Assembly: GCA_023910675.1 (NCBI GenBank)
Contig: JAAVWC010000001.1
Coordinates: 124,001-188,000, forward strand
Direction: 5' to 3'
Source of the DNA: Gemmatimonas sp.
Lineage (GTDB): Bacteria > Gemmatimonadota > Gemmatimonadetes > Gemmatimonadales > Gemmatimonadaceae
Length of the DNA stretch: 64,000 bases
Made by a program: the position numbers and the translations under genes. The notes beneath the pieces are model-generated. The model saw only the letters and a program-made list of their open reading frames with translations, was not told the origin of the DNA and did no database searches. Positions within the stretch are counted from its first letter, which is position 1; every line of letters starts with the position of its first letter. Below, in pieces: positions 31,040 to 53,658 of this stretch.

Positions 31040-31069
31040 GCGGGCGCGGGCGAGATAAGGGTGCGCGGC

Positions 31070-32589: not shown

Positions 32590-32652
32590 GGGGGAGCGTG
32601 GGCAGTCCGAGCAGCACCGGGCAGCACCAACCAATACGACAATACGACTACC

Positions 32653-33693: not shown

Positions 33694-33704
33694 CAGCGCA
33701 GCAC

Positions 33705-34397: not shown

Positions 34398-34455
34398 GCC
34401 TCAACCTACGCCACGGCGCGGCAGGGCGTTTCAGCCGGCGCCCGTGCGCCGGTGT

Positions 34456-34662: not shown

Positions 34663-34952
34663 GGTGTGAACCTCCGATCGAGGAAGGCGTGGTGAACGGT
34701 GACGCCGTCCGCGAGCAACACCACGCACAGGTAACGAGCGACCTCCACAATGTACGCCCAGTGGCGAATGCGGCCATCCCTCTGAACCAGCTCGGCTGTT
34801 GTATTCTGAAGCGCCGTCAGGATCCATTCGTCGCGAATCGCCGCGCGATCTGCGCGTTTTCGATGTACGCGCCGTAGTTCCCTTCGGACGACCGATACGA
34901 TCAGAGCGGTTGTGATCTTCAGAGGGGAAATCACGCGTGACAGGCCTTCCAT
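34659..34952 (-). CDS. DUF4258-like small protein, putative partner of DUF2283
   Basis: Up to 97 residues. The conserved part is DEWILTALQNTTAELVQRDGRIRHWAYIVEVARYLCVVLLADGVTVHHAFLDRRF, a pattern I associate with DUF4258-like RelE-type small proteins found in front of DUF2283. The N-terminal 40 residues are poorly conserved and basic. The DNA encoding part of them (34860-34886) is a near-exact copy of an ettA 3' segment read in another frame, so the 5' end may have been rebuilt by recombination. Start uncertain: the ATG at 34952, or a GTG at 34934 with AGG in front. Confidence 0.6.
   Translation of the reverse strand: MEGLSRVISPLKITTALIVSVVRRELRRVHRKRADRAAIRDEWILTALQNTTAELVQRDGRIRHWAYIVEVARYLCVVLLADGVTVHHAFLDRRFTP
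34860..34886 (-). repeat. Copy C of the ettA 3'-end segment (27 bp)
   Basis: A 27-base stretch with one mismatch to 52064-52090 inside ettA and three to 51188-51214. In the ettA frame it still reads EGNYGAYIE, the motif near the ettA C-terminus, but beyond it the similarity stops. It lies in the same orientation as the other two copies and at the left limit of the RM/hipBA/XRE block. Confidence 0.75.
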
Positions 34953-35016
34953 CGTGCCGATGTGACAAAGAATGTGACAAAACGCTCAGGGTTTCGGGCG
35001 GGGAGGGACGATGGGA

Positions 35017-35874
35017 TCATGGCTTCAGCGCATCAACGGGAGCCACGATCAGCTTGCCGGTCGCAGAGAATTGAAACTGGCGGCGCCCGCGTTTCTCTGG
35101 GGCTCTCTTCACGCGATCAAGCAAACGCTTCAAGGCGAGTGTGGGGCCCACCCGGGATGACCACGTGACTCTTCCTCCGAATCGACGCATGCAGTTCGGT
35201 GGTGGCGGCGAATCGAGGACGTTCGAGATCGAAAGCGCTGTAATCGCTGCCTCACCGAGCTGCTGCACACGAGCGCCAAGTTCAACATCATCCTCCGGCA
35301 GCAACGGAACGATGGCTTTCAGCGTCTCGACGATGTTCTCGGATACATGAAGCAGTGAATCAACCTTGTGTTCCCACACGGCCCAGTCGCGAATACGCTG
35401 CTCCTCGGCCTCCAGCAGCGAGTTCATCAGTCCGCAGCCGTCGACCAGCCAATCGGTCGAAAGCCCGTGACCCTTGACGACATTGAACGCGCCCTCGTTG
35501 TCGCGCCTGCGGATGTGGGAATGAACGTGGATCGCAAGATCCTGTTCGAGTTCTTCGCGTGATCTACTCGCCGTCCACGGAACGACACTCTCGCCCCCGC
35601 GGCCCATGAGCAGCCAGTCGGCAGAGACGCCCGTCCGCTCGCATATCTGACTGAGCAAGCTCGCGCCTGGCATCTGCTCTCCCGCGAGCCACTCAGAGAC
35701 ACGAGCCTGTTGAATTCCGCAGTGCCTTGCGAAGGCTGCCGCGCTATCGAAGCCGCGAACAAGCAGCCGGAGCCGATCTTGGAACGCTCGATTGGAGGCG
35801 TCTTTTGTTGCGGACTTTGCTCGTTTTCGGACGCTCGCCGATGACTTTCGCGTGCTTCGGTTTTCCGTAGGCAT
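35017..35874 (-). CDS. XRE-family helix-turn-helix regulator with unknown C-terminal domain
   Basis: A 285-residue protein. Basic N-terminus (ENRSTRKSSASVRKRAKSATK), then a Cro/CI-type HTH at about 30-90: RLRLLVRGFDSAAAFARHCGIQQARVSEWLAGEQMPGASLLSQICERTGVSADWLLMGRGG. The remaining 190 residues are helical and unassigned; an acidic segment (SLLEAEEQRIRDWAVWEHKVDSLL) could dimerise or bind a ligand. Codons are less G/C-biased than the neighbours, consistent with transferred DNA. It may control genes of this island. Confidence 0.75.
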   Translation of the reverse strand: MPTENRSTRKSSASVRKRAKSATKDASNRAFQDRLRLLVRGFDSAAAFARHCGIQQARVSEWLAGEQMPGASLLSQICERTGVSADWLLMGRGGESVVPWTASRSREELEQDLAIHVHSHIRRRDNEGAFNVVKGHGLSTDWLVDGCGLMNSLLEAEEQRIRDWAVWEHKVDSLLHVSENIVETLKAIVPLLPEDDVELGARVQQLGEAAITALSISNVLDSPPPPNCMRRFGGRVTWSSRVGPTLALKRLLDRVKRAPEKRGRRQFQFSATGKLIVAPVDALKP

Positions 35875-36395
35875 GGCTTCGGAAATACTCGGAACCACCC
35901 GGATGCGCAACTACAATGGCCAACGCAGCTTGCTTCCGTCCTAGCAAACGGAGCGACGAGATGCAGCTACCAGCGCGACCTCACGGTGTCGACGGGCGTA
36001 TGTGGATCACGGGGATCTTCGTGATCCGACTCCCGCGAATCCTCATTTCGCTGGCCGTGCTTCTGAGCACTTGCCGTCCACAAGAGAGGCATAGTCTGAG
36101 CATTCGTAGTGCTACTGGGGTATCGTCGAGCGTATCGCTGGGAACTAGAAGGCGGCAGCAGGCAGCCTGCTGCCTATCGTCACCCGAAGAGGGCACGTCT
36201 CCTGCGCCCGGCAACACGGTGCCGCCCGCACCCGTGTCGCCCTTGCTGTCCTACCCGAGATGAGTTCGAGAGGACGTCAACGCCAACACGCCCCGCGAAC
36301 CTGCTCTGGGCTTGGGTCACCGTGGCTGCCCCAAGTAGCGGGAGCACAATAACACCTTATATTTACACTATAACATTTCGATATAATGTTTATTT
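35875..36395. other. Non-coding gap with two strong palindromes
   Basis: About 520 bases between the divergent XRE gene and hipBA without a convincing gene. It holds an inverted repeat GGATCACG (36004-36011) / CGTGATCC (36020-36027) with an 8-base loop. It also holds a 21-base palindrome at 36154-36174 with 10-base arms GGCAGCAGGC/GCCTGCTGCC around a single A. The last 60 bases turn AT-rich into the hipBA promoter. The palindromes could be regulator sites or part of a small structured RNA. Confidence 0.5.
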
Positions 36396-36398
36396 ATG
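36372..36398 (+). promoter_or_regulatory. hipBA promoter/operator; predicted leaderless start
   Basis: A perfect -10 TATAAT (36382-36387) sits only 8 bases before the HTH gene's ATG, so transcription should start at the start codon and give a leaderless message. An inverted repeat AACATT (36372-36377) / AATGTT (36385-36390) overlaps the -10. The flanks are strongly AT-rich in a GC-rich genome. A possible -35 TTTACA (36362-36367) has too short a spacing (14), so the -35 is uncertain. Confidence 0.6.
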
Positions 36399-36776
36399 CG
36401 TGAAAAGCCACTTATCGAGCAGACTCCCAAGGCATTGGTACAGCGCACCGGCGAGCGCGCCAAGGCCCGCCGCCTCGCGCTTGGACTCACACGCGAGGTC
36501 CTGGCGGAGCGAGCCGGCGTCTCAGTCGACACACTCCGTCGCTTCGAGACTACCGGGCAGATCGCGTTCGAGCGATTGGTGCGCATTGTGGTGGCGCTGA
36601 ACGTCTCGCCGAGCCTCGACGATCTCTTCCCGGCGGTCACGGTCGAGAGGCTGGAGGATCTCGAGCGCGCCGCCCCTGCCCGGCAGCGCGGCGTACGTCG
36701 CGATGCGAGCGCGGCCGTTCGTGCCAAGCTGGTTCGCGTGGGCCCCCGCGGCGGCACAATCGGCGGGCGCAAGTGA
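36396..36776 (+). CDS. hipB: HipB-like XRE regulator/antitoxin
   Basis: A 126-residue HTH protein. The DNA-binding domain spans about 15-70: RTGERAKARRLALGLTREVLAERAGVSVDTLRRFETTGQIAFERLVRIVVALNV. The C-terminal tail is Ala/Arg rich (RQRGVRRDASAAVRAKLVRVGPRGG). It lies directly upstream of a HipA gene, overlapping it as GTGA (36773-36776), and behind a palindromic operator, the usual hipBA arrangement in which the B protein represses the operon and neutralises the kinase. Confidence 0.85.
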   Translation: MREKPLIEQTPKALVQRTGERAKARRLALGLTREVLAERAGVSVDTLRRFETTGQIAFERLVRIVVALNVSPSLDDLFPAVTVERLEDLERAAPARQRGVRRDASAAVRAKLVRVGPRGGTIGGRK

Positions 36777-38146
36777 CGCCTCGTTCGCCTCGCCGGCCGT
36801 CGGCCACCGCGCGCGCCACGAAGCCTGTTGCGCGCGTGCAGGTCGGGCTCCGGTTCGGGATGGATCGACACGGCGTCGCCGTGCCCGACCGCGTCGTTGG
36901 GACCCTCGCCCTGCACGAGGGACGCCCGGTCTTCTTCTACCACGACGCGTTCTGCCTGGACCCTCTGCCGCTCTCGCCCTTTCGTCTGGCGGTGGGACCG
37001 GGACCGCACACCCATGACGACCGCGCGTTCGACCGGCTCCCCGGCCTCCTCGCCGACGCCCTGCCCGACGGGTGGGGTCGTCGCCTGCAGGATCGTGCCT
37101 TTCGCCGGGCAGGGAAACGCCTCGACGACATTTCGCCGCTGGATCGCCCGCTCGCCGTGGGACACGCCGCCATGGGCGCCTTGTTCTTCGAGCCCGCGTC
37201 CCCACTGCTCCGAGAACGCGAGTCGACCGACCCGCTCGCGTTTGATCTCGGCGCCGTCGCCGCGCAGGCGGCACGGCTGCTGGAAGGGAGCGAAGAGGAG
37301 GTCCTCGAGGCCGTCATGCTCACGGGCGGCTCCCCCGGAGGCGCGCGGCCGAAATCCGTCATCGGCCTCGCCGGCGGGGATCCCGCGCGACTCGTTGCCG
37401 GGGTGACACCAGAGATCGCCAGCGGGACCGACCTGGCGCTCCCAGACGCGTACGACGCGTGGCTCGTGAAGTTCGCCAACGATGAGGATCGCCGGCTCTT
37501 CGGAGACGATGTGGGCGCCGTCGAAGCCGCGTACGCGCGCGTGGCGGAGCGCGCTGGACTCGCGATGCCACCGACCCGCCTGCTCACGGACGCCACCGGC
37601 CAGCGCCATTTCGCCGTGCAACGATTCGACCGATTCGGCCCCGGTGGGCGCGGGCGCGTGCACATGCATACGGCCGGCGGCCTCCTGCACGCGTCGTTCC
37701 GTGAGCCCTCCCTCGATTACGAGGGGCTTCTGGCGCTCACCTGGCAGCTCACCGGCTCGTATGCGGAGGTGCGCCAGATGTTTCGGCGCATGGCGTTCAA
37801 CGTGTTCATGTACAACCGGGACGATCACGCCAAGAACTTCGCGTTCCTCATGGAGGCGGACGGCTCGTGGTCCCTCGCCCCGGCCTACGACCTCATGTAC
37901 AGCACCGGCATGGGGGGGTGCCACACCACCGCCATCGGCGGCGTCGACGCCTGGCCAACGCTCGCGACGCTCCGCGCCGTGGGTCGGCAGGCGTCGCTCG
38001 AAACCGCTCATATCGCGGCCGATCTCGACAAGGTGCGCAGCGCGGTCGCCGACGTGACCACCGTGCTGCGTGACCTCGGCTGCGCACGCGACACCATCGC
38101 GCTCCTTACCTCACGTTTCGACGAGGTCGAAAGACGCGCGCGGTGA
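36773..38146 (+). CDS. hipA: HipA-family serine/threonine kinase toxin
   Basis: A 457-residue HipA-like kinase. Kinase marks in order: the Gly-rich TGGSPGGARPKSVI loop (about 183-196), DAWLVKF (about 223-229, holding the ATP Lys), FAVQRFDR, the catalytic NRDDHAKNFAFL (about 344-355) and LAPAYDLMYS (about 363-372, metal-binding Asp). The N-terminal 110 residues match the small HipA N1 domain (GTLALHEGRPVFFY ... LPDGWGRRLQDRAF). E. coli HipA phosphorylates GltX; the target here is unknown. GTG start overlapping the antitoxin stop. Confidence 0.9.
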   Translation: MTPRSPRRPSATARATKPVARVQVGLRFGMDRHGVAVPDRVVGTLALHEGRPVFFYHDAFCLDPLPLSPFRLAVGPGPHTHDDRAFDRLPGLLADALPDGWGRRLQDRAFRRAGKRLDDISPLDRPLAVGHAAMGALFFEPASPLLRERESTDPLAFDLGAVAAQAARLLEGSEEEVLEAVMLTGGSPGGARPKSVIGLAGGDPARLVAGVTPEIASGTDLALPDAYDAWLVKFANDEDRRLFGDDVGAVEAAYARVAERAGLAMPPTRLLTDATGQRHFAVQRFDRFGPGGRGRVHMHTAGGLLHASFREPSLDYEGLLALTWQLTGSYAEVRQMFRRMAFNVFMYNRDDHAKNFAFLMEADGSWSLAPAYDLMYSTGMGGCHTTAIGGVDAWPTLATLRAVGRQASLETAHIAADLDKVRSAVADVTTVLRDLGCARDTIALLTSRFDEVERRAR

Positions 38147-38164
38147 CGCCCGCCCGCCGCGGCC

Positions 38165-38869
38165 CTATAGCGGCAGCTCATTCAACTCCGTCCGCGCCTC
38201 GCGCCACGCCGGATAGTGCGCATCCAGCAACGCCAGAAACCGCGGCCCGTGATTCGGCTCGATCAGGTGCGCCATCTCGTGCACGATCAGGTACTCCAGC
38301 AGGTCCTTCGGCTTCTTCACGAGCTCCGTGTTCAGCCGGATCGTGCGCGCGGCGTGATTGCACCCACCCCAGCGGGTCTTCATGCGCTGCAGGAAGTAGC
38401 GCGACACCGTCACACCGAGCGTACGCTCCCACTTGGCGATCAGATTGGGCACCGCATCGTGCAGTACCTGCAGGTGCCACGCGTGCATCACGGCGCGCCG
38501 ACGATCGCCGGTGCTCCCAGGGCGCACCGTCAGCGTGATGCGACGATGGTCCAGTGTGACCATGGGTTTGGCGTCCCGCTCCTTCACGACGAGCAGATAC
38601 CGTCGCCCCCATACCCAGTGGCTTTCTCGCGTGACAAAGCGCCGCGGCGCCTCACGCGCCTGTGCTCGCAACCTGGTGCGCTGATCGCGGATCCACGGCA
38701 ACTTCGTCACCGCGTACGCGCGCGCAACGTCGGTACGGGTACCGACCGGCGCGACGAGCGTCACGCGTCCGTCCGGTGGATGTACGGCCAGATGCACGTT
38801 CTTCACGTCGCGCCTGGTGAGCTCCACCGTAACGTCCCCAAGCTCGATGATGCTTAGCGAACTGGCCAT
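38165..38869 (-). CDS. YgjP/SprT-like zinc metalloprotease (M48-like, DUF45)
   Basis: A 234-residue protein with the DUF45 layout: WGRRYLLVV, LQRMKTRWGGCN, TIRLNTELVKKPKDLLEYLIVHEMAHLIEPNHGPRF. The zinc site HEMAH is at about residues 197-201, with a further His in EPNHGPRF. Its ATG overlaps the hsdR stop as ATGA, so it is the last gene of the type I RM operon. YgjP-like genes recur as passengers in type I RM loci; the function there is not settled. Confidence 0.88.
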   Translation of the reverse strand: MASSLSIIELGDVTVELTRRDVKNVHLAVHPPDGRVTLVAPVGTRTDVARAYAVTKLPWIRDQRTRLRAQAREAPRRFVTRESHWVWGRRYLLVVKERDAKPMVTLDHRRITLTVRPGSTGDRRRAVMHAWHLQVLHDAVPNLIAKWERTLGVTVSRYFLQRMKTRWGGCNHAARTIRLNTELVKKPKDLLEYLIVHEMAHLIEPNHGPRFLALLDAHYPAWREARTELNELPL

Positions 38870-41800
38870 CAGTAGCCCGGCTGATTCTTCACGATCTCGA
38901 ACACCGCCGTCGTGGCCTCGCGGTCCCGGTCGAGCAGGGGATACAAGGCGTTCTTCACCTTCGACTCGCGCACGTAATCACCCCTCCACCCGGCTGGCGC
39001 CTGCTCCCGCACCGTGCGGTCCAGCTTGAGGGCAAACGCCGCCAGCGCCTCCTCAGGAGTAGGGTACAGAAACGTGGTAGCCGGGACCGTGGGCAGGTTG
39101 TTGAACAGCACCGTTGCCTCATGGTTGCCGTGCAACACCGCCGGCACGCCGTTCGGACTGCCACGCACCGCCAGCTGGCGGGCCAGCTCCTCCGCCTTTC
39201 GCAGGAACTCCTCGTATGCTTCTGCGCCCTTCCGACTCTGCTCGATGAGATCGTCCAGCAGCGTCGACATGCGCTCGTAGAAGCGCGGGTCCGTGAGCTG
39301 ATCGCGAATAATCACCTTGCGCACGTTGTTGATGATCGTCTCCGCAATGGCTCGCTTCGACAGTCTTCCGGCTCGATTGATCTGTCGCGCGATCACGTCG
39401 TTGATGCCTGTGTCGACGATCATCTCCACGAGCGACTGCGTACCGGCCGCCCCGATCACCACGGCGGGATCGGCCAGCACATACATGTCGAGCAGGTTGC
39501 GCATGTCGGCTTCGTACGGTTTGATGTCCAGCTCTTCGCCCGAATACTTCTTGATCGCGTCGCGAATGTCGGCGTAGACGTGGACCTCGTGCTTGATGCC
39601 AGCGGCCTTCGCTGTGTCGTATCCAAGAGCGGCCATATCGGTCGCCACCTCGGCGTAGGCGCGGGCGAACGCGGCCGTAGCCTTGTAGTACGCGATTCGC
39701 AGCGGCTCCGTGGCATTAAGCGCCTCAGGGTCGCTCGCTTCGCCGCAGAAGTAGTGCAGATACTGCTCCACGTCCTGCGGCGCGAGGACCGGCTCGCAGA
39801 GACGCATCACGACTTCCCGCGTGTTCTCCAGCTGTCGGCGACCCTCCTCACGCCAATCGCGAACTGGCACGTTGCCATCCTCACCAGTCGCTTCGTCTAC
39901 GTCGAGTACATCGGAGCTGTAAAGCGAGATCGCCCCCTGCACTTCGCCAAACAGCTGCTTGAAATCCACGATCTGCCCGAACGGCTTGTCGTCACCGTCA
40001 AGACGATTGGTTCGGCAAATGGCCTGAAACAGGTTGTGGTCGCGCAGCTCGTGGTCGAAGTAGATGTACGTACAACTCGGCGCATCAAAACCCGTGAGCA
40101 ACTTGCTCACGACGATGAGCAGCTTCGTGTTGGCCGGCTCCTCGATGAAGCGGCGCTTGATCTCGGCTTCGTACTGCCCCGTGGTCTGACCGGCGGAGAG
40201 CACATGTTTGGTATACGTGTCGAACTTGTAGCGCTCGTCGCTGTCGGCCGGCTCGCGCGAAATGGCGTTGTGATTGGGCTCGTAACTCGTGACGATGCCA
40301 ACGTACTTGCCGAAGGTGGTGTGCTGAAACAAGCGGACGTAATGACAGGCGTCACGAATGGACGCCGCAACAAGTATCGCGGTGCCGCGGTCCGCATTGA
40401 GGCGGGGCTTGAGCGCGAAGTCCTCGATGATGCTGGCGATGACCCGATCCTTCCGCTCCTGCGAGCTCAGGAGCTCCTGCATGTTCGCCCACCGCTTCTT
40501 CAGCACCGACTTCTGGTAGTTGTTGAGGGCGGCGGTCTTGGTCTCGAACCACTCGTCCACCTTCTCGCCCTGCGTGAGGCGTTGCGGGACGTGTCGCGCC
40601 TCGTACCGGAAGTCGAGCACCACCTTGTCGGAGACGGCTTCGTGGAACTTGTACGTGTGGATGTACGTGCCGAAGACGTCGCGCGTGAGCGGTTTATCCG
40701 TGCGCAGCAGCGGCGTGCCGGTGAAGCCGATGAAGACAGCCCCCTCGAGCCACCGCTTCATTTGCTTGTTGAGCGCCCCGCCTTGGGTGCGGTGACATTC
40801 ATCCACGAACACATAGAACGTGCCGTGCCGCGGCGGGGGCGGCCCCTCCAGGTCGTTCGGATTGAACTTGTGCAGCAGCGCGCACATCACCCGCGGCGCG
40901 GTGGCGGCCAGCTGACTTACAAGCTGCGCCCGCGTGGTCACACGCACGTCCTTCTGGTCTTCGCTAACCACGCCCGCATTCTTCATCACGCCCGTGATCT
41001 GCTTGTCCAGTTCATCACGGTCGGTGACCACCAGCACGCGCGCGCTCGGGTCGTGCTCCAGCAGCCACTTGGCCAACAGCACCATGAGGATGCTCTTGCC
41101 ACTTCCCTGCGTGTGCCAGATCACGCCCCCTTCGCGCTGGGCCATGCGCGCCTGCGCCGCCTTGACACCGAGGTACTGATGTTGGCGCGGGACCTTCTTG
41201 CGGCCCGCATCGAAGATGACGAAGTGGCGAATGAGGTCGAGCAGACGGGCCTTGTCGCAGAGCTGCGCCAGAGGGCTGTCGAGCAGTTCGCCCGGAGTAG
41301 CTGCTACGCCCGTCGTGGCGGGCTCGCCGCGCTTCCACTGCACGAAAAACTGTTCGGGCGTACCCACGGTGCCGTAGTGCAATCCCTGCGTGTCATTGCC
41401 GGCAAACAACAGCTGCGCGGTGGTGAAAAACCGCTCGTTGAAAATGGATTCCTGATTCGTGATCAACTGCCGAATGCCGTCGGCCACCTCCACCGAGCTG
41501 CGCTTGAGCTCCAGCACGGCCATGGCAATGCCGTTCACATATAGCACGACGTCAGGGCGACGTTCGTGGCCGCCGGTGAGCGTCACCTCTTCGGCAATGG
41601 CAAAGTCGTTCAGCGCGGGCTCGTCCCACTCTACGAAATGCACCGTGTCGTGCGGCGCACCGGCGGCGACCTGCACCTTGGCGCCGTAGCGCAGCAGGCT
41701 ATAGGTGCGCAGGTTCGCCTGGTACAGCGTGGAACCAGCCACCTCGGCCGCCTTCTCCAGCTCGAGGAGCGCGGCGCTGATGTGCGCGGCACTGTAGCCG

Positions 41801-41955
41801 CGGCGCGTGAGATTGGCGCGCAGCAGCGCTGTTTCGATGTGGCGATTGCCGGGGCGCGACTCCCAGTTGCCGAGGTACTGGTAGCCGAGCGTGTCGCGAA
41901 ACAGGGCGATCACGCGGTCCTGCGTGGCGCGCTCAGAACGGGACTCAGAGATCAT
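38869..41955 (-). CDS. hsdR: Type I restriction enzyme R subunit (HsdR)
   Basis: A 1028-residue motor/nuclease subunit. The N-terminal PD-(D/E)XK nuclease shows ERRPDVVLYVNG...AVLELKRSS (about 131-152). The SF2 translocase follows with Walker A HTQGSGKSILMVLLAK (about 282-297), FVDECHRTQGG (about 386-396, DEAD-like box), FTGTPLL and later the helicase motif region QAICRTNRLD. A helical C-terminal part binds HsdM/S. Length is typical. 26 bases behind the AlbA_2-like gene. As HsdR cannot assemble without a working HsdS, the frameshift in hsdS in this copy would disable restriction. Confidence 0.94.
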   Translation of the reverse strand: MISESRSERATQDRVIALFRDTLGYQYLGNWESRPGNRHIETALLRANLTRRGYSAAHISAALLELEKAAEVAGSTLYQANLRTYSLLRYGAKVQVAAGAPHDTVHFVEWDEPALNDFAIAEEVTLTGGHERRPDVVLYVNGIAMAVLELKRSSVEVADGIRQLITNQESIFNERFFTTAQLLFAGNDTQGLHYGTVGTPEQFFVQWKRGEPATTGVAATPGELLDSPLAQLCDKARLLDLIRHFVIFDAGRKKVPRQHQYLGVKAAQARMAQREGGVIWHTQGSGKSILMVLLAKWLLEHDPSARVLVVTDRDELDKQITGVMKNAGVVSEDQKDVRVTTRAQLVSQLAATAPRVMCALLHKFNPNDLEGPPPPRHGTFYVFVDECHRTQGGALNKQMKRWLEGAVFIGFTGTPLLRTDKPLTRDVFGTYIHTYKFHEAVSDKVVLDFRYEARHVPQRLTQGEKVDEWFETKTAALNNYQKSVLKKRWANMQELLSSQERKDRVIASIIEDFALKPRLNADRGTAILVAASIRDACHYVRLFQHTTFGKYVGIVTSYEPNHNAISREPADSDERYKFDTYTKHVLSAGQTTGQYEAEIKRRFIEEPANTKLLIVVSKLLTGFDAPSCTYIYFDHELRDHNLFQAICRTNRLDGDDKPFGQIVDFKQLFGEVQGAISLYSSDVLDVDEATGEDGNVPVRDWREEGRRQLENTREVVMRLCEPVLAPQDVEQYLHYFCGEASDPEALNATEPLRIAYYKATAAFARAYAEVATDMAALGYDTAKAAGIKHEVHVYADIRDAIKKYSGEELDIKPYEADMRNLLDMYVLADPAVVIGAAGTQSLVEMIVDTGINDVIARQINRAGRLSKRAIAETIINNVRKVIIRDQLTDPRFYERMSTLLDDLIEQSRKGAEAYEEFLRKAEELARQLAVRGSPNGVPAVLHGNHEATVLFNNLPTVPATTFLYPTPEEALAAFALKLDRTVREQAPAGWRGDYVRESKVKNALYPLLDRDREATTAVFEIVKNQPGY

Positions 41956-41981
41956 TGATGCAGTGGACGGGGAGAGGCCAT

Positions 41982-43428: not shown

Positions 43429-43501
43429 GAGACAGATGCTGAAGGATCGGTAGTGCGATACGGGGCGGCGTATGACGACGGTGTGCGATTGCGAAATATG
43501 C

Positions 43502-44706: not shown

Positions 44707-47120
44707 ACCGCCCCCATCTTCGCGAGATGCGCATCCACCCGCGCACTCAACTCCGCAATCTCCTCCATCAGCGCCGGCAACGGCGTCGCATACCGCTCCG
44801 CCAATTCGCGAATGCGCCCGGTGAGCGTCTGCGACACACGATCAAGTTCACCACGCACCACCGTCGACAAGCGCGCCATCCACTTGTCGTCCACTATGAG
44901 CGTCTTGATCTCCGCCACAGTGAGCGATGCGTACTTCGCAAACGCGAGCGCGTCGAGCGCCGCATCCTGCTCACGCACTGTTCGCTTCAACGCGGCTTCA
45001 GTCTCGCACAGCTCGAGCCAGCGCTTCAGCACCGCCACTTCGTCGGTCGCGTCCTTGTCGCCCTTGAGCTCCCTGAGCCGCGCCGACACATCGGCCTTGG
45101 CCACCTTCTCGAGCGCCGCCAGATACCCGTCCTCTCCACCGTGCTCCTCTTCCAGCTCGGCAATGGCGGCGGTGGCCGCTTCCAACGCCGCCATCGCGGC
45201 CTCCAGCGCCGCCTGCTCAGACGCGAAGTAGCGCGCCACAATAAGCGGCTTAGGCACCAGCTCGCAGGCCCACCCCCGGTCTTTCGTGCGCCCCTTCTTG
45301 TCCGTTTCCACAATGCGCGCCGGCTTCGCCGCCCAACCGTCGGCCGCAATGAGATACGCGTCGTCCTGCATGCTCTCGGCCCAATAGTCCATGAGGTGCT
45401 GGTACACGTCGTACGCGTCCAACAGCGGCGCCGTCTCAAATGCCGCCAGCAGCTCTTCGGCAATAGCCCCAATCAACGCCTTGGGGTGCCCACCCTGGTC
45501 GAACGCTGTGAGCTGCTGCGTGGCCGAGTCGCGCCACGCAGTGAAGCGTTCCGTGGCCAGCCGTTGAAACGCCGCGAACTCCGCATGGCCGAGGATGGCG
45601 GGCTTCACCTCGGCGATAGGACACGCGAGCCGAGCGTATCCCGGGCGCCCAGCCGACTCGAACAGCGCCGCGCGCACCGTGGGCAGCACCTGCCAGAAGT
45701 CGCCCAGCGCGTCGAGATCGCGCGTGGGAATGCCGCCGCGCAGATGCCCGTCGATGTCCTGCAGGTCTTCCGGTGTGCTGGAGTCGATGTAGCGCGGCAA
45801 GTTGAGATTGAAGTCGTTCTTGACGTCGGCGATCTCGCTGGCCGGCACCATGCGTGCATAACGCGGCACCTCCACCTGCCGCGTGAACACATCCACGATG
45901 CGATGGATGTCCTGCGCGCGCAGCCGGTTCTTGTTGCCGTCCTTGATGAAGCCCTTGCTGGCGTCGATCATGAACACGCCCGTGCGCGCGGCGGCGTTCT
46001 CTTTATCGAGCACCAGAATACACGCCGGAATGCCGGTGCCATAAAACAGATTGGCCGACAGCCCAATGATCCCCTTCAGCACTCCAGAGCGTACCAACTC
46101 CTTGCGGATGGCCCCTTCGGCATTGCCGCGAAAGAGCACGCCATGCGGCAGGATACACGCGCCTTTGCCCGTGCTCTTGAGACTGCGCACGATGTGCAGC
46201 AGGAACGCGTAGTCGCCCTGCTTGGCCGGCGGTACGCCCCACGCGAAGCGGCCGTACGGGTCCGCGTCCGGGGTGAGCCCCACGCTCCACGTCTTCACCG
46301 AGAACGGCGGATTGGCCACCACGTAGTCGTAGCGGCGCAGCTGCTCGCCATCGAGGAAGCGCGGATTGGCCAGCGTGTTCCCCTGCCGGATGTTGGCGGT
46401 GGGGAAGTCGTGCAGAATCATGTTCATGCGGGCGAGACCGGCGGTGGTCACGTCCATCTCCTGCCCTTCAAGCGTGATGTGCTTCCCCGCCTGCTCGGCC
46501 ACCTTGAGCAGCAGCGAGCCCGACCCGCAGGTGGGGTCGTAGGCGGTGGTTGAACTCACGGTGTTCGCGGGCCCGATGCCGATCACCTGCGCGATCACGC
46601 GGCTCACCTCGGACGGCGTGTAGAACTGCCCCTTGCTCTTGCCACTTTCGGTGGCGAAGTGACGCATGAGGTACTCGTACGCATCGCCCAGCAGGTCGTC
46701 CTGTTCCGCGCGGTGCTGCGAGAAGTCGAGCTCCGGCTCCTCGAAAATGGCGACGAGGTCCGACAACCTGTCCACCATCTCCTTGCCATCGCCAAGCTTC
46801 GTCTTGTCGTTGAAGTCCGGGAAGTCGGAACGGGCCAGGCTGCGCGTGTTCGCGTCGATGAGCGGCTGGATGACCTCGGTGTTGATGCGGTCCCCGATGT
46901 TCGGGTGCCCCTTCATCTTCGCCATGTCGGCGAACGACGCCCCCTTGGGGATCACGACCGCCGGCGCGAAATCGGCACTATCGGCGTACTTGTCGCTCAC
47001 GTACTTGATGAAGAGCATGAACAGGACGTAGTCCTTGTACATGCTGGCATCCATGCCGCCGCGGAGGGCGTCGCAGGAGGCCCAGAGGGAGGCGTAGAGG
47101 TCGGACTTCTTGAGGGGCAT
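44697..47120 (-). CDS. hsdM: Type I DNA methyltransferase M subunit (HsdM)
   Basis: An 807-residue N6-adenine methyltransferase. The N-terminal helical HsdM domain (about 1-140) is followed by GQFYTPSEVSRVIAQV, the AdoMet motif DPTCGSGSLLLKVAE (about 193-207), and the catalytic NPPFS (about 269-273, motif IV). It is longer than the usual 500-residue HsdM: the C-terminal 300 residues form a helical/coiled-coil extension (EAAMAALEAATAAIAELEEEHGG...). The ATG overlaps the fic stop as TAATG, so it follows fic in one operon. The methylated motif cannot be inferred because hsdS is broken. Confidence 0.94.
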   Translation of the reverse strand: MPLKKSDLYASLWASCDALRGGMDASMYKDYVLFMLFIKYVSDKYADSADFAPAVVIPKGASFADMAKMKGHPNIGDRINTEVIQPLIDANTRSLARSDFPDFNDKTKLGDGKEMVDRLSDLVAIFEEPELDFSQHRAEQDDLLGDAYEYLMRHFATESGKSKGQFYTPSEVSRVIAQVIGIGPANTVSSTTAYDPTCGSGSLLLKVAEQAGKHITLEGQEMDVTTAGLARMNMILHDFPTANIRQGNTLANPRFLDGEQLRRYDYVVANPPFSVKTWSVGLTPDADPYGRFAWGVPPAKQGDYAFLLHIVRSLKSTGKGACILPHGVLFRGNAEGAIRKELVRSGVLKGIIGLSANLFYGTGIPACILVLDKENAAARTGVFMIDASKGFIKDGNKNRLRAQDIHRIVDVFTRQVEVPRYARMVPASEIADVKNDFNLNLPRYIDSSTPEDLQDIDGHLRGGIPTRDLDALGDFWQVLPTVRAALFESAGRPGYARLACPIAEVKPAILGHAEFAAFQRLATERFTAWRDSATQQLTAFDQGGHPKALIGAIAEELLAAFETAPLLDAYDVYQHLMDYWAESMQDDAYLIAADGWAAKPARIVETDKKGRTKDRGWACELVPKPLIVARYFASEQAALEAAMAALEAATAAIAELEEEHGGEDGYLAALEKVAKADVSARLRELKGDKDATDEVAVLKRWLELCETEAALKRTVREQDAALDALAFAKYASLTVAEIKTLIVDDKWMARLSTVVRGELDRVSQTLTGRIRELAERYATPLPALMEEIAELSARVDAHLAKMGAVWG

Positions 47121-48595
47121 TACGCGCCTGCTTGCTGAGGCTCTGGTGTGTCGGTGGCCTGTTTCCAGGCGTCGAATTCGCTCATGCGGAGTTGGTAGCG
47201 CGCGAGGATATCGGGGCGCAGCACACGCAGATCCCGACGCGCAGCCACGACGAAGGCGCCCTGATCGTGCGTCGGGACGCCAGACTGTTTCGCGCGTGAA
47301 ACGAGGATGTCCTCCGTGGGCCGGAGGCGGCCCCGTACGATATCTGCAACGAGCGCTCGCAGCTCTGCCCGGTAGTTCAACCGAATAGGGTCCGGATCAC
47401 CCATCGCCTGGCGAATGACTTTGAACTGAGCACACGAGCGCTCGTAGGCCCAGGCAAAGACGTCGCGCAGCAGCGAGACATCGTTGCTTTCGTAGACCGC
47501 GAGGGTGCCTTGGGTGTACGTCGCCTCGGGGACATCCACGAACGACAGCGGGCAGAGATTGGCCTTGATGAGTGAGATGTTCGCGGACAGGCGCGAGGTC
47601 CGCTTGTTCACATCGATGAACGGCTGGAGATACGGCAGGTGCACCATCATGAAGAACGCCTGCTCCATCGGATCGGGGATGGCTCCCGCTTTTTCGAGCA
47701 TCGTGCGGAAGTGCTCGTCGATCAGCTGCGGGATGGCCGTTGGCGTGTATACCGAGTTGCCGATGCCAATGGGGCGGCTGCGCAGTTCGCCTTCGTCTTC
47801 CGGGTTGCCGAGGAGATTTTCGGAGAGCAGGGCATGCAGACCGAGCACGGTGTATCGATCGAAACCGATCTGCTGCGCGTTCTCCACGAGGAACTCGATT
47901 GCCGCCTTGTGATTCAGGATCATCTGCCGATCTCGATCGGATGCCCCGTTCGCCTCGCGTCCGCCGGTGAGGAGTTCCTCTGTGTCGATGCGGCTGTACT
48001 TGTTTCCCTCGAGGCGACTGGAGCCCCATGAGAGATCGATGATCAGTCGCTGAATGATGTCGCGCGCGTAGGTACCGGCAGGCTCGCCCACATACGCCGT
48101 TTGCCCGAGCGCCTTGAGATAACTGCGGAGCGCGCTGGGTAGATACCAGGTGATTCCTGGTTCGTACATATCCAGGAACTCGACGTGGTACGACACGGGA
48201 GGACGCTGCGTGCGCGGCCGGAGCACCAACGCCCGAGCCGCCTCGGCCTGTTCGGAGAGAAGCATTCCCGGCTCGCCAGCCGTCGTGAGGGCAGCGTCGA
48301 CCGCAGCCGGGTTCGCGCCTCCCTCGCGCGGCGCTCGCCGCAGGCGCTCCGCCTCCTCCATGCGCGCGGACAAGCGGTACGTGGGATTGCGGCGCGCTGA
48401 AGATCTCTCGACCAGTTCGGCCGCCAGAAGTTCGTCCAGCCTCACTCGCAGCGTGGTATAGGCGATGTGCTTGGCCGTCCGGGCCGCATAGGCGCGACGA
48501 ATCTGCTCATACTGCAATGCAGCCGGCGCATCACGCAGGACCATGAGGATCGCCCGTCTCTCATCCTCGACCGCTCTATTGCTTTTGCGCGCCAT
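47120..48595 (-). CDS. Fic-fold protein with catalytic His replaced by Gln, first gene of the RM operon
   Basis: A 491-residue protein. An N-terminal winged-helix-like part (about 10-75: RRAILMVLRDAPAALQYEQIRRAY...TTLRVRLDELLAAELV) precedes a Fic domain. The inhibitory-helix-like motif SSRLEGN is present (about 203-209). The active-site loop reads LQPFIDVNKRTSR, so the canonical HPFxxGN-R has Gln324 in place of the catalytic His and Val in place of the Gly, though the N-x-R part remains. Thus AMP transfer by the classical mechanism is doubtful. The ATG at 48593-48595 has GGGGAG upstream; the frame is open 22 codons further. It may regulate or protect the RM genes that follow. Confidence 0.8.
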   Translation of the reverse strand: MARKSNRAVEDERRAILMVLRDAPAALQYEQIRRAYAARTAKHIAYTTLRVRLDELLAAELVERSSARRNPTYRLSARMEEAERLRRAPREGGANPAAVDAALTTAGEPGMLLSEQAEAARALVLRPRTQRPPVSYHVEFLDMYEPGITWYLPSALRSYLKALGQTAYVGEPAGTYARDIIQRLIIDLSWGSSRLEGNKYSRIDTEELLTGGREANGASDRDRQMILNHKAAIEFLVENAQQIGFDRYTVLGLHALLSENLLGNPEDEGELRSRPIGIGNSVYTPTAIPQLIDEHFRTMLEKAGAIPDPMEQAFFMMVHLPYLQPFIDVNKRTSRLSANISLIKANLCPLSFVDVPEATYTQGTLAVYESNDVSLLRDVFAWAYERSCAQFKVIRQAMGDPDPIRLNYRAELRALVADIVRGRLRPTEDILVSRAKQSGVPTHDQGAFVVAARRDLRVLRPDILARYQLRMSEFDAWKQATDTPEPQQAGA

Positions 48596-49367
48596 CCGCA
48601 GCTCCCCTGGGCTGACCGCCCTTCCGCACCGTATCGGAGTTCGAACCGCGTCCAGAACCAATGGGTTCTGCCACGGAGCGGGCGGTTTGTGCAGTAACGA
48701 GCCCTATTTTACAGTAAAGTATCAGTTGCAGTAACAATTAGCAAATACGGCAATAATCGAACGTACTGCAATTCATTTTCCCTGAAGCCTGTGCAGCCTT
48801 TGGCTCACTAACGCGTTGTTAGCTTGAGAGTTATGCAAACATTTGACCTCAAATGTCAAGCACCGCACACTGAAACTATTTCAGTATTACCGTAACGAAA
48901 ATGCTTCCCAATACCGCAAAAGTCCCTGTGTTACTGTATAAACATTACATTATGCAGTAAAATAGGCGCACCGGCTTCCCCAGGTATGGGATCATTGAAC
49001 AGCGAAAGCCCAGCCGAGCAGCGCGCTCAACTGGGCTTCGATCCGTCTTACCGCAGGGGCCAGCCAGCCTAGGCGATTTTGCCCCTACCATCGAGCGGGT
49101 TGCTCCATCTTCTGCAGGTCCAATCGCCCGCAATGCTCGCACCCGGCTATGCACTTCAAATTCAGCCAGGTTGGTACGGGCGCTGACGCGTTGAGCTGAC
49201 GAATCGAGTTGATTCGTGAATAACGGCACATGGTACGTCCAACCGTTGAACTTCTCTGCGTATTTCGGCTGATGTCGATCACCCAGGAGGCTGCGGACGG
49301 GGACCATCCGCGCGGCACATTCCCCCGGACTCTTTCCGGAGGGGCGGTGCCCGCAGTGAGGATCCCC
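48596..49367. promoter_or_regulatory. AT-rich control region of the fic-hsd operon, many short palindromes
   Basis: About 770 bases without a gene; the part from about 48690 to 48970 is strikingly AT-rich. It contains several copies of GCAGTAA/TTACTGT-like sites (48691, about 48709, 48727, 48931 and 48954). A TTTAC-A-GTAAA palindrome lies at 48708-48718, and an 18-base palindrome ACATTTGA-CC-TCAAATGT at 48839-48856. TGAAA-CTA-TTTCA lies at 48871-48883. A stem AGCCCAG/CTGGGCT lies at 49007-49037, with inner GAGC/GCTC pairs. The sites look like operators for a regulator of the RM operon, or the junk edge of a transferred block. Confidence 0.55.
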
Positions 49368-49580
49368 ATGCGACAGGTAGCAGAGGCACTCCGCCTCGCG
49401 TTTGACCAGGGCCGCAGCCAGCGCGAGATCGCGCAGGCGCTCCGCGTTTCGCAAAGCACGATCAATGAGTATCGAAGCCGGTTCGCGGCGTCAGGGCTGA
49501 CGTGGTCGCAGACGCTCCCCGGCTGGATCGCCGCGCCCGTGGCGATGCTCGAAGCCTTTGTCGATCAGTGGCCGGGTTAA
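49368..49580 (+). pseudogene. IS21-family IstA transposase, N-terminal remnant
   Basis: A 70-residue open frame whose start, MRQVAEALRLAFDQGRSQREIAQALRVSQSTINEYRSRFAASGLTW, is the helix-turn-helix N-terminus of IstA. A full IstA has around 400-500 residues and a DDE core; here the frame ends after a short unrelated tail. No istB and no IS ends were found. It shows past IS21 activity next to the RM block. Confidence 0.65.
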
Positions 49581-50644
49581 TGAGGGCTTGATGGCGGCGT
49601 CGGAGCCGACGGCTTTGCCTGATCATCCTTCTTGGGTTCAGCTGACTTAGGCTCCTCCTTCTTGAACGGATTCGATGAGAGTCTCAAGCTCATGCCTAGC
49701 GCGTGCATGAAGCGGTACGCCGATTGGGTGAGCTGCTCCTCGGTGAGTTGTTCGCTGATCTCCTTCGACGTCCCACGATACTCAGGTCGCAAGCGGCGTG
49801 TGTTGCCAAGGACCCCTCCGTAGTGCAGCTGCATCCACGAATTGCCGAAGCTCAGGCCAGCGCCCCAGCCGGCGAACGCCGATTCACCGAGTGTTATCGG
49901 TACGAAGGCGGAGATTCGCAAGTTCTTCCATGACGCAGGGAAGGTGATCGCGACCAATGCCGTTGGATCAAGCGCGTCGTTCTGCCCGCCTTCGACAGTG
50001 TACTTCCCCGCCGCCGATTCTCGCGCGCGGAATCGCTCCTGCTTGCCGAACCGGTGGAGGACGCCGAAGGAGAAGAATGGTTGTGGGCCATCGTCGGTGG
50101 AGACAAGCACGATCTCCTTAACGGTGGTACGAAGGGTGTCGGCGATACGAAGAACCGCTACCAGCACTGTCTCGCCAGGCCCAATCTTGACTGAGCCTTC
50201 AAGTTCCCGCCCCTCGCGGATGGGATCAAAGAGCAGGGCAAGACTAGCACGCTCCTCACGGGTACAGGCTGGCGACGCTTTGGCAATGGCATCATCGGCG
50301 GCGGCAACAAACTCAGGAACAGCACGCTCCGTTTGGACAGAGGCAAAGGCAAGCCGCCATGTCTCGACCGCACAGGGCTTGCCCGATGAAAGTGGTCCGC
50401 CGGTTGCCTTCGGCAGTGAAATGGGCGCGGTCGCCGCTTTCTGCCGTCCGCGTTCGGTCAACGCATAGGCATACCCAATCAGGCCATTGCGTACCTGCAC
50501 CCTATACTCGCCGGTCGACACCTTCACGGTGTCTGCCTTCGCGGTTGACAGGTCAACCACAGGCACCTGTCTCGCCCATAGAACACCCGGCAACACTACC
50601 GTGAGCATCACCGCCCCGACGAAACGGGCAATCAGTCGCATCAT
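49577..50644 (-). CDS. Secreted hypothetical protein
   Basis: A 355-residue protein with a signal peptide (MMRLIARFVGAVMLTVVLPGVLWARQ) and no domain I recognise. The middle part has extended beta-like stretches (SVKIGPGETVLVAVLRIADTL; SFGNSWMQLHYGGVLG), perhaps a beta-barrel or sandwich. The last 35 residues are Lys/Pro/Ser rich (FKKEEPKSAEPKKDDQAKPSAPTPPSS), which suggests a disordered tail. Its stop overlaps the stop of the convergent IstA remnant. Codon use is less G/C-biased than the flanking core genes. Confidence 0.65.
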   Translation of the reverse strand: MMRLIARFVGAVMLTVVLPGVLWARQVPVVDLSTAKADTVKVSTGEYRVQVRNGLIGYAYALTERGRQKAATAPISLPKATGGPLSSGKPCAVETWRLAFASVQTERAVPEFVAAADDAIAKASPACTREERASLALLFDPIREGRELEGSVKIGPGETVLVAVLRIADTLRTTVKEIVLVSTDDGPQPFFSFGVLHRFGKQERFRARESAAGKYTVEGGQNDALDPTALVAITFPASWKNLRISAFVPITLGESAFAGWGAGLSFGNSWMQLHYGGVLGNTRRLRPEYRGTSKEISEQLTEEQLTQSAYRFMHALGMSLRLSSNPFKKEEPKSAEPKKDDQAKPSAPTPPSSPH

Positions 50645-51114
50645 CGTACACCTCGAGGAGTTGGCCTTCATTCGGTGCGCAACGGTAAGACTGCACTGGA
50701 CCCTGGCACAATAGGACGAATAGCCTATCGATCTGGCAGCGGCGATCAGTGGTATCGAATGCCCTCCGTCAGTGCGGTGTCAGCGGCGACAACCAACGGC
50801 ATCGGACCACAAGATCCGGACGAAGCGCAATAACTGGAGACGCGATCTTCACAGTGTTGCGGTTCGCGGCTGGTCGGCGAGTCATGAACCGAAGCTGACG
50901 GACGGTCACGCGGTGCCCGATGCTCTTTCGAGTCCTCCGCCATGCTGCACGCCGTTCGCCGCCCGCGTCCGGTGCACCGGATGTGACGAATCATGTGACA
51001 AGAACCAACGCCCGGCCGCGCCCACGCTCGACCGGGCGTCGCCGGCGTTGAACCGGGCTCGCCGGCGGCCACGAACGAGACCTCACCGGCAAACCCAAAC
51101 AAATCAACGACGTA
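50645..51114. other. Non-coding gap
   Basis: About 470 bases in which I find no convincing gene, promoter or RNA. Short GC-rich repeats (CGCCGGCG) lie near 51040-51070. It ends where an ettA-like fragment begins. Confidence 0.5.
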
Positions 51115-51216
51115 TCACCGCACCAACTTCTTGTACTTAATGCGGTGTGGCTGGTCGGCATCGGCGCCTTTCCGCTTCTTCAAGTCCTCGATGTACGCCG
51201 CGTAGTTCCCCTCGGA
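51115..51216 (-). repeat. Copy B of the ettA 3' end (last 33 codons plus stop)
   Basis: Read on the minus strand this fragment encodes SEGNYAAYIEDL, then KKRKGADADQPHR and [12 protein letters not shown], the complete C-terminus of EttA. It differs from the true ettA end (51991-52092) at about 14 mostly synonymous positions, with the last 24 bases identical. Such synonymous divergence shows it is not a fresh local duplication but an ettA end from another genome or an old copy. It begins exactly behind the nucleotidyltransferase stop codon (51217-51219). Confidence 0.88.
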
Positions 51217-51777
51217 CTACAGGAGGTCCACCGAACCGATCGCCCGCCACTGCGCGCCAAGACCGAGCGCGCTCACCCAACGCTCCACATACGCGCGATC
51301 AAACACAGGGCCAGCAAGCGAAACGAGCGCCCGTACATCCTCCAACTGACGGGCAGACGCGCCAAGCTGCGCCCACTCGAGCTTGGCAATCACCAAGTCC
51401 TCGACGGTCGCCACCGGCAGTGTGACATTGCCCAGCGCCAGATCGACCCGGCGTGAAAACTCCTCAATACTGAACGGCCGAGCCTTCCGAACAATAAGGT
51501 CAATTTTCCACCCCGATTCGACGTCGACCACGTTGAACATGCTGCGCGTCGCCATCGCCTCCTCGGCAGCGTCCATCGACACATACCGACCAGTCGACAG
51601 CATCGCCGTGACAAACTGTTCGAGCGACGCAGGCGTAGGGTCGATGACGAAATCGATATCCAACGTCGAACGGCCTGCGCCGTGCACGGCCGCAGCAAAC
51701 GATCCGGTAAGCATGAACGGCACCCCGGCGGACTTCAGCGCGACGACCATTTCGTCGAGCAGAGAGAGCACGGTCAT
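51217..51777 (-). CDS. Nucleotidyltransferase-like protein (AbiEii/DUF6036-type)
   Basis: A 186-residue protein. The nucleotidyltransferase signature is FMLTGSFAAAVHGAGRSTLDIDFVIDP (G-S near 25-26, D-x-D near 40-42), followed by GWKIDLIVRKARPFSIEEFSRR and EDLVIAKLEWAQLGASARQLEDV. The family resembles the AbiEii/MNT-type enzymes that act as toxins or antitoxins. Its start overlaps the stop of the preceding 70-residue gene as TAATG, so the two form one unit. That unit lies between the ettA 3' end and its divergent copy B, in the same orientation. Confidence 0.82.
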   Translation of the reverse strand: MTVLSLLDEMVVALKSAGVPFMLTGSFAAAVHGAGRSTLDIDFVIDPTPASLEQFVTAMLSTGRYVSMDAAEEAMATRSMFNVVDVESGWKIDLIVRKARPFSIEEFSRRVDLALGNVTLPVATVEDLVIAKLEWAQLGASARQLEDVRALVSLAGPVFDRAYVERWVSALGLGAQWRAIGSVDLL

Positions 51778-51989
51778 TAGTCCGCCCGCGGCGTGTGCGA
51801 CCCCTCACTCACCATGTACGCCAACTCCACCATGGTCCGGTCGGGATAGCGCGCTTTGAAGCGCGCTATCGCCGCCGCATGTACGAGCTCGCTCAACTCG
51901 AGCGCATCGCGAAGACGCGCTTCCGGTGAGCGGGCACGGATGGCGGCCACGCGCACCGCCTCGGCCTCCGCGCTCGTGTCGTTCGACAC
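51777..51989 (-). CDS. Small helical partner of the nucleotidyltransferase
   Basis: A 70-residue protein: VSNDTSAEAEAVRVAAIRARSPEARLRDALELSELVHAAAIARFKARYPDRTMVELAYMVSEG. It resembles small helical proteins (SPxxRL-xAxELSE ... RRHPDxT) found upstream of DUF6036-type nucleotidyltransferases, probable antitoxins or regulators. The GTG at 51987-51989 is two bases behind the ettA stop (51991-51993), so it is read through from ettA transcription. A longer start inside the ettA 3' end is also open but would only translate ettA out of frame. Confidence 0.72.
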   Translation of the reverse strand: MSNDTSAEAEAVRVAAIRARSPEARLRDALELSELVHAAAIARFKARYPDRTMVELAYMVSEGSHTPRAD

Positions 51990-51990
51990 G

Positions 51991-53658
51991 TCACCGCACC
52001 AACTTCTTGTACTTGATCCGGTGCGGCTGGTCCGCATCCGGCCCCTTCCGCTTCTTCAGATCCTCGATGTACGCGCCGTAGTTCCCCTCGAACCACACCA
52101 CTTCCGAGTCACCTTCGAACGCCAGAATGTGCGTCGCCACACGATCGAGGAACCAGCGATCGTGAGAAATGATGACGGCGCAGCCGGAGAAGTCGATCAC
52201 CGCCTCTTCCAACGCACGCAACGTATCGACGTCGAGATCGTTCGTCGGTTCGTCGAGCAGCAGCAGATTGCCGCCCTGCATCACCGTCTTGGCGAGATGC
52301 AACCGGTTCCGCTCACCACCCGACAGGTTGGCCGTGAGCTTCTGCTGATCGGCGCCCTTGAAGTTGAAGCTCGCGGCATACGCGCGGGAATTGAGCTCGC
52401 GCTTGCCCACCGGAATGGTTTCGCGGCCCCCCGAAATCTCTTCCCACACCGTGCGCTTCCCTTCGAGCGTGCGCTGCTGATCCTGATACGAGATCTGCAC
52501 CGTTTCGCCAATCGTGAGCTCGCCGCCGTCGGGCGTCTCCAAGCCGTTGATCATGCGGAACAACGTCGTCTTACCGGCACCGTTGGGGCCGATGATCCCC
52601 ACGATACCGGCACGCGGCAAGTCGAAGTTCAGGTTCTCGAACAACAGCTTGTCACCGAACGCCTTCTTCAACCCCTTCGCGCGCACGACATCGTTGCCGA
52701 GGCGCGGCGCCGGCGGAATGACGATTTCGTTCGACATCACGCGATCGTTCTGCGCTTCGCTGGCGAGATCCTCGTACGCCTGCAAACGCGCCTTGTTCTT
52801 GGCCTGACGCGCGCGCGGCGACATGCGCACCCACTCGAGCTCCTTCTGCAACGTCTTCTGACGCGCACTGGCCTGCTTCTCTTCGAGCGCCAACCGCGCC
52901 TGCTTCTGCTCCAGCCATCCCGAGTAGTTCCCCTCGTACGGCACACCCTTGCCGCGATCGAGCTCAAGGATCCACTTGGCCACGTTGTCCAGGAAGTAGC
53001 GATCGTGGGTGATGGCCACCACGGTCCCCGCAAACTTCTCGAGGTAATGCTCGAGCCACGCCACCGATTCGGCGTCGAGGTGATTCGTGGGTTCGTCGAG
53101 CAGCAGCATGTCCGGCTCTTCGAGCAGAATGCGGCAGAGCGCCACACGTCGCTTTTCGCCACCCGACAACACGGTCACGTCGGCATCACCCGGCGGCAAC
53201 CGCAACGCGTCCATCGCCACGTCGATCTTGTTGTCGAGATTCCACAGATCGTGCTGGTCGATGTACTCCTGCAGCTTCGCCTGACGGTCCATCAACTTGT
53301 CGAAGTCCGCATCGGGTTCCGCGAACTTCATCGAAATCTCGTTGTACTCGTTGAGCGCGTCACGCTGCGCCTTCACGGCGAGCTCCACGTTGCCGCGCAC
53401 GTCGAGCGTGGGGTCGAGCTCGGGCTCCTGGCTCAGGTACCCAATGCGCGTGCCCTTGTGCGCCCACGCCTCGCCCTGAAACTCGGTGTCCACGCCCGCC
53501 ATGATGCGCAGCAGCGACGACTTGCCGGCCCCGTTCGGACCGAGCACGCCGATCTTGGCGCCGGGATAGAAGGAGAGCCAGATGTCGTCGAGAATGATGC
53601 GCGAAGGCGGAACGACCTTGCGCAGCGCCTTCATGACGTAAATGAACTGCGGAGCCAT
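51991..53658 (-). CDS. ettA: ABC-F protein EttA (energy-dependent translational throttle)
   Basis: A 555-residue ABC-F ATPase, the normal EttA length. It starts [20 protein letters not shown] and has two nucleotide-binding domains: Walker [10 protein letters not shown] (about 39-47) and GPNGAGKTT (about 350-358), [13 protein letters not shown] and [13 protein letters not shown] signatures, [13 protein letters not shown] and [13 protein letters not shown]alker B. The linker between them holds the arm seen in EttA. It binds the ribosomal E site and gates entry into elongation according to ADP/ATP. A 27-base segment of the 3' end (52064-52090, EGNYGAYIE) recurs at 51188 and 34860. Confidence 0.96.

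Follow-up and report, generated by a model that had tools for sequence, protein, structure and literature searches.

The 3' end of ettA as a probable integration hotspot for recombinase-free units in the Gemmatimonadaceae

Integron cassettes are short gene units that carry no recombinase and build up in tandem at a single site. Staphylococcal and enterococcal cassette chromosomes (SCC and ECC) encode large serine recombinases within the element, and Salmonella genomic island 1 (SGI1) and the islands at dusA encode their own Int; we know of no short cassette-like arrays at the latter group. SCC and ECC (PMC6222049) insert at the 3' end of rlmH (orfX), a conserved gene connected with the ribosome, and leave it intact; they have direct-repeat attachment (att) sites, tandem composites, variable cargo, and some members without a recombinase. 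SGI1, at the 3' end of trmE, and the dusA islands also target a conserved housekeeping gene (PMC8409611, PMC4482086). A comparable arrangement at ettA, which encodes a translation factor, was analyzed in a stretch of 64,000 nucleotides (the window) from a draft genome of Gemmatimonas sp. (4.55 Mb, 85% complete; assembly GCA_023910675.1, contig JAAVWC010000001.1, positions 124,001 to 188,000, or G000:C1:124001-188000 in our numbering). In the family Gemmatimonadaceae, the ettA 3' end is probably a site-specific integration hotspot at which recombinase-free, cassette-like units would be integrated in trans. Unlike SCC and ECC, the units encode no recombinase that was found, have a site layout more like that of tyrosine recombinases, carry a replacement gene end of ~99 bp, and target ettA rather than rlmH. 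The SGI1 and dusA islands differ from them in having their own Int and in target gene and host phylum. Unlike those of integrons, the ettA units have in common an ettA end with arm-like repeats, and no integrase match lies beside the array (attC sites were not searched for). As no integrase was found inside its units, we do not class the window type among ordinary integrase islands. Searches of the open-access literature (supplements not covered) turned up no account of integration at ettA, and a term search of PMC12884075 returned 0 mentions of ettA.

Three copies of the ettA end, designated R, M, and L, mark out the array in the window.

51991..53658, minus strand: ettA, 555 residues, stop at 51991
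51991..52089, minus strand: R, core and ettA's own tail (E-G-N-Y ... K-L-V-R-stop)
51777..51989, minus strand: small protein of the 0.8-kb module, no Pfam match
51217..51777, minus strand: AbiEii-like nucleotidyltransferase (NT), PF08843, E = 3.4e-5, above the cut-off
51115..51213, minus strand: M, second core and ettA tail
34893..51114, no strand: 16-kb unit, L to M; 36335-43639 is 94% and 44645-51155 is 97% identical in genome G067
34860..34892, minus strand: L, distal-end core (GAAGGGAAC) and ~26 bp of ettA tail

Local alignment within the window matched R to M (51115-51221; 86.9% over 107 bp, 14 mismatches, 0 gaps, E = 2e-33) and to L (34860-34892; 90.9% over 33 bp, E = 8e-8). M and L were 87.9% identical, and all three lay in one orientation. 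The three copies and coordinates given in a preliminary description, made from the letters of the window, were borne out; in the genome-wide search that it had proposed, R, M, and L were the sole significant copies (E = 1e-60, 2e-31, and 3e-6; next 0.93). M was the ettA C terminus from codon E-G-N through the stop, and its changes relative to R were mostly synonymous (8 of 10 changed codons), as had been claimed, but its extent was corrected to 99 bp from GAG to stop, 51115-51213. L was likewise a real copy, but a truncated end rather than a full tail, keeping just the first ~26 bp before continuing into a DUF4258-like gene. The NT stop codon fell at the core, and a small protein similar to that of the module was found 3' of ettA in G067, G062, and G048.

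Gene-end direct repeats flank the insert, and ettA is reconstituted as read from the sequence. In the mechanism proposed, units of ~1 to 16 kb would recombine into a short core at the E-G-N codons (GAGGGGAA), and with each would come a further copy of the final ~33 codons, restoring ettA and displacing the previous tail to the far side. Since a displaced tail begins with the core again, further units could insert and produce tandem arrays. The window array would accordingly be ordered as ettA, NT module, core and tail M, 16-kb defense unit, and core L. EttA function would be restored by the tail of the incoming unit, and the units may still be mobile today. L is, in our judgment, more likely the distal end of the array, its displaced tail cut after ~26 bp by a deletion that fused it to the DUF4258-like gene. 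A secondary insertion into that gene was considered and rejected; homologues are ~14/20 like the ettA core at this place, whereas the window matches ettA exactly at L, which is why a truncated tail is preferred.

The last 39 EttA residues had a match in 157 of 179 family genomes, and among the matches listed, at least 12 genomes had two or more strong ones, on one contig in at least 10. The first 39 residues had a match in 156 of the 179, with two or more strong ones in 2 genomes and on one contig in none (among the matches listed). In a phylum sample of 395 genomes, the tail was found in 244 (E 1e-4), and two or more tails occurred in 15 genomes of the window's family; the sole genome outside the family with two or more tails, G226, had a different boundary. 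When aligned by codon, 22 displaced tails in 12 genomes and six genera began at the E-G-N codons (G000, G067, G062, G048, G075, G102, G103, G104, G155, G156, G040, and G002). These sites (System A) were selected by a boundary at codon 7-9, and ~10 further displaced tails had other boundaries. Upstream of the E-G-N boundary, the displaced copies were non-ettA sequence. GAGGGGAA was exact at 18 of the 22 tails, and two sites were degenerate at the core (L050 and L053). Eight of the tails were on the contig of ettA itself (two in G000 and one each in G067, G062, G048, G075, G102 [C128], and G156 [C246]). In 16 copies, each set against the ettA of its own genome, 93 of the 145 altered codons, summed over copies, were synonymous (left out were L, L053, and two copies each at L040 and L041; the G061 row was unused). 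Synonymous changes made up 16/16 in G002 and 17/22 in one G102 copy. Such a pattern would be expected of replacement ends that once functioned as the end of a gene.

Other arrangements at ettA ends were also seen. In G001 (L208:5934-5978, 12462-12577), the displaced tail has a different boundary, starting with DADTP, and a frameshift affects the tail of the resident ettA. Longer C-terminal duplications of 80 to 97 codons flank or follow inserts in G124 and G125 (L046, L047) and in G022 (L045:12961-13200), likely by a different mechanism. Two contigs of G102 (L054:9318-9413, L039:74-172) have a common flank behind unlike unit ends and may reflect an assembly of mixed strains, some having the array and others lacking it. 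In G043 and G048 (L057, L053), large genes resembling defense genes adjoin ettA, with no tail copy or a degenerate one.

Two relatives, G061 and G067, were compared with the window beyond its distal end.

34456..34859, minus strand: DUF2283 protein (PF10049) and body of a DUF4258-like gene, 5' end lost at L (no Pfam match; the DUF4258-like family name is our presumption)
33705..34435, no strand: conserved chromosomal flank; G061 homology ends at 34435

The variable region begins at ~34435, where homology to G061 stops. G061 had both the flank (window 26037-34435, 90%) and the ettA side (93%), separated by 1.7 kb, and a single tail. The preliminary description had suggested looking in relatives for an empty ettA site joined to this flank; G061, with its small interval and one tail, partly answers to this, but no bare ettA-flank junction was found in the relatives examined. 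G067 shared with G000 the flank, the DUF2283 module, the 16-kb unit, and the NT module (96.4%); its HsdS, between the 94% and 97% blocks of the 16-kb unit, was partly aligned. L, the arms of L, and most of the repressor gene found in G000 were absent. G067 had an extra 10.4-kb unit on a 10.6-kb contig (C135), with both ends M-type. Exact 128-bp overlaps joined the ends of this contig to the NT contig, to the 16-kb contig, and to one another; an overlap of the same kind linked the NT contig with the 16-kb contig. For the 10.4-kb unit this leaves a precise insertion between the NT module and the 16-kb unit, or a free circle. As G067 also carries the HipBA and restriction-modification (RM) genes, the 16-kb block probably predates the 10.4-kb unit. 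Successive integration at the ettA 3' end, as first put forward in the preliminary description, is supported by the tails in six genera and by the G061 and G067 comparison. Other cargo between ettA-like ends, which it had also proposed to look for, was found as the 10.4-kb unit and behind same-boundary tails in six genera.

Arm-like repeats were found beside the cores at both ends of the 16-kb unit.

50983..51001, plus strand: proximal arm-like repeats GTGACGA...GTGACAA, 12-bp period, within the 16-kb unit; positions equivalent in G067 and G057
34962..34980, plus strand: distal arm-like repeats, GTGACAA twice, 12-bp period; distances to the core, 83 and 95 bp

GTGACRA/TYGTCAC occurred ≤200 bp upstream of the core at 13 of the 22 sites, at distances of 83 to 129 bp, against a background of 11.4% among randomly chosen 200-bp windows (binomial, 1e-7, taking no account of relatedness). 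In genus g1, repeat pairs with the 12-bp period stood at both unit ends (window 34962/34974 and 50983/50995; G067 C135 155/167 and 10321/10333), and the proximal pair was also present in G057. The paired pattern of window-type unit ends matched at 6 places in the 179 genomes, 4 of which were ettA unit ends, and its reversed control matched at 0. Outside ettA units, one match was in G133; the other, in G076, was rejected because it lies within a coding region, among genes that we take to be of flagellar type. An inverted repeat of the type GTAGTTC-GAGGG-GAACTAC, mostly inexact, was seen around the core in g1 and g20 only. In genus g20, units with different genes had a common end of ~120 bp, and end plus tail were 81 to 88% identical; two g20 sites carried another kind of end. 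The short core, together with GTGACAA repeats at near-fixed distances, resembles a tyrosine-recombinase att site, and this is the class to which we would, on balance, assign the enzyme. As no recombinase gene was found in the units, the enzyme most likely acts in trans. Contig C29 of G103 (L192:3017-3142) bore the arms and GAGGGG of an element end, with no ettA tail following, possibly a secondary insertion site or the result of decay.

A second type of element at the ettA end carries its integrase in cis. In G022 (LBMAG hypo.bin1), a 411-residue integrase (phrog_1, E = 5e-16; PF00589 below the cut-off) lay within a 3.8-kb insert reaching from the ettA 3' end, at the contig edge, to the displaced last codons KYKKLVR-S-stop. 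In G047 (Gemmatimonas sp. UBA2094), a 75% identical integrase stood beside a short displaced tail; ettA is absent from this assembly. Conserved in the integrase alignment are R, K, R-x-x-R, H, and Y, at what we take to be the tyrosine-recombinase positions, and no solved structure matched the integrase profile. Like the window type, these elements target the ettA end, carry a replacement tail, and have repeats with a 12-bp period; unlike it, they have the integrase in cis, a crossover ~25 codons further downstream, and TTACGTGA as the repeat. At least two crossover specificities therefore use the ettA 3' end, since the integrase in G022 and G047 adjoins a different, shorter displaced tail. Because the repeat period is shared, one guess is that window-type units are moved by a relative of the G022 integrase family. 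Relatives 46% identical to the G022 integrase were encoded immediately 5' of ettA, pointing away from the gene, in G062 (L042:16761-17948) and G032 (L077:882-2081). Upstream of ettA in G062 were TATGGGGAA direct repeats of the same 12-bp period. The 5' side of ettA is perhaps a third docking site.

The search for an enzyme of the window type agreed with the preliminary description, in which no integrase had been visible: no PF00589 match lay inside units of this type. A recombinase motif pattern was weak, showing 8 of 18 loci fetched around PF00589 matches, so that absence rests on the genome profile searches; its match at L058 was an apparent antisense false positive. Gene annotation of the window's unit revealed no serine recombinase, and no genome search for one was made. 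PF00589 had 11 matches in G000. Eight stretches covering 10 of these 11 were set aside as candidates, having no ettA tail and no arm pair (three had a core-like string), as was a recombinase common to G000 and G067 (C10), which adjoins a short sequence repeated at several places, not ettA. In viral contigs, 139 stretches matched a pattern for the ettA tail and 0 were confirmed by profile; the core pattern matched 2 viral stretches, by pattern alone, and the arm pattern matched none. The proximal unit end had no match in plasmids.

Several observations weigh against site-specific integration of recombinase-free units at ettA. At a loose cut of E 1, two or more matches were found in 35 genomes for the C terminus and in 19 for the N terminus. 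The source genomes are mostly draft assemblies, and 14 of the 22 tails were on contigs without ettA; several of these contigs end at a tail, a break pattern typical of repeats. The same-boundary tail of G155 lies inside a 0.93-Mb contig without ettA, which touches on the unrelated positions that the preliminary description had named as speaking against its reading. Synonymous changes were only 9/20 and 10/21 in the G040 tails, L has lost most of its tail, and the contig graph of G067 fits insertion and a free circle alike. Arm repeats were missing from 9 of the 22 sites, M included, and the inverted repeat at the core was exact (7/7) at one site and at least 5/7 at nine of the 22, that one included. 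In all 12 same-boundary genomes, PF00589 matches fell outside units and none within, and the integrase family of the second type (profile A2) was not found in G000, G067, or G057. The A2-family enzyme of G062 escaped detection with PF00589 alone, and a divergent recombinase could therefore go undetected too.

The strongest alternative shares the hotspot and differs in how the units move: they would be remnants of autonomous prophages or integrative elements with decayed integrases, and nothing would be mobilized in trans. We hold this to be a serious possibility, though the less probable course. The truncation of L, the loss in G067 of the distal end of the 16-kb unit, the transposase-like remnant and CI-like repressor, and the existence of integrase-bearing elements at the ettA end all favor decay. 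On the other hand, units in five other genera also lacked a PF00589 match, as did the G067 10.4-kb unit with both ends present, and the integrase-bearing type has a different crossover and different repeats. Recombination, homologous or illegitimate, with foreign DNA carrying an ettA 3' end, giving partial duplications without a site-specific enzyme, is unlikely. It would account for ettA duplications with other boundaries (G022, 80 codons; G124 and G125, 97 codons; G148, G226, G001, and G006), for G067 tails that look homogenized (96 to 98% identical), and for several tails off the contig of ettA, but not readily for one 5' boundary at 22 displaced copies in six genera, spaced repeats upstream at 13, and g20 ends that are alike beside different genes. 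It is highly improbable that IntI-like integrases encoded in these genomes move the units as integron cassettes: PF00589 matches spanning an enlarged domain, which we take to be IntI, occur in several of the genomes, including a gene in G067 contig C193 that adjoins a homologue of the L-side DUF2283/DUF4258 module, but GTTRRRY, the attC/attI consensus, is not matched by the core, units can be as long as 16 kb, and no PF00589 match lies at any unit (attC sites were not searched for). Integration of recombinase-free units at ettA is retained as the preferred reading. Its extension to an integron-like system throughout the family, in which one host or helper tyrosine recombinase, acting in trans, would gather such units at ettA in six genera or more, several of the units bearing anti-phage systems, is put forward tentatively and is rather doubtful.

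The cargo of the window comprised an XRE/CI-like repressor, HipBA, a YgjP-like peptidase, a type I RM system, a Schlafen/AlbA_2 protein, and Fic.

49577..50671, minus strand: predicted protein of the 16-kb unit, no Pfam match
49230..49580, plus strand: helix-turn-helix (HTH) transposase-like remnant, HTH matches ("IS21" in the preliminary description)
47120..48661, minus strand: Fic protein, PF02661
44697..47120, minus strand: HsdM, type I methyltransferase
43502..44706, minus strand: HsdS, split across two reading frames in the window
42058..43428, minus strand: Schlafen/AlbA_2 protein, PF04326
38869..41955, minus strand: HsdR, type I restriction enzyme
38165..38869, minus strand: YgjP-like metallopeptidase, PF01863
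36396..38146, plus strand: hipB-like gene (36396-36776) and hipA (36773-38146)
35017..35910, minus strand: XRE/CI-like repressor beside the distal arms, largely missing in G067

The 10.4-kb unit of G067 encoded a 1,561-residue protein matching the PADLOC candidate PDC-M54A and a UvrD_C fragment, and ZorA- and ZorB-like proteins were encoded 3' of ettA in G057. Units of genera g20 and g8 were ~1 to 3.4 kb, with one of ~11.5 kb, and carried a sigma factor, Fic, carboxypeptidase-regulatory-like proteins, a transposase (presumably IS3-type), and proteins without a Pfam match. The ettA end would be an address at which a little-studied group swaps defense genes, such as type I RM with HipBA and Fic, ZorAB-like proteins, and a PADLOC candidate, and new defense genes could be sought by reading between ettA tails. 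It would also add a translation factor, hit by at least two crossover specificities, to the known target genes, and it raises the question of which enzyme moves units that encode no recombinase.

Two minor features of the window were also recorded. HsdR and HsdM are open while HsdS spans two frames, and in G067, HsdS is one open frame. The DUF2283/DUF4258-like gene pair was dispersed across the genus (window 34456-34859; L191, L229, L221, L222, and L223).

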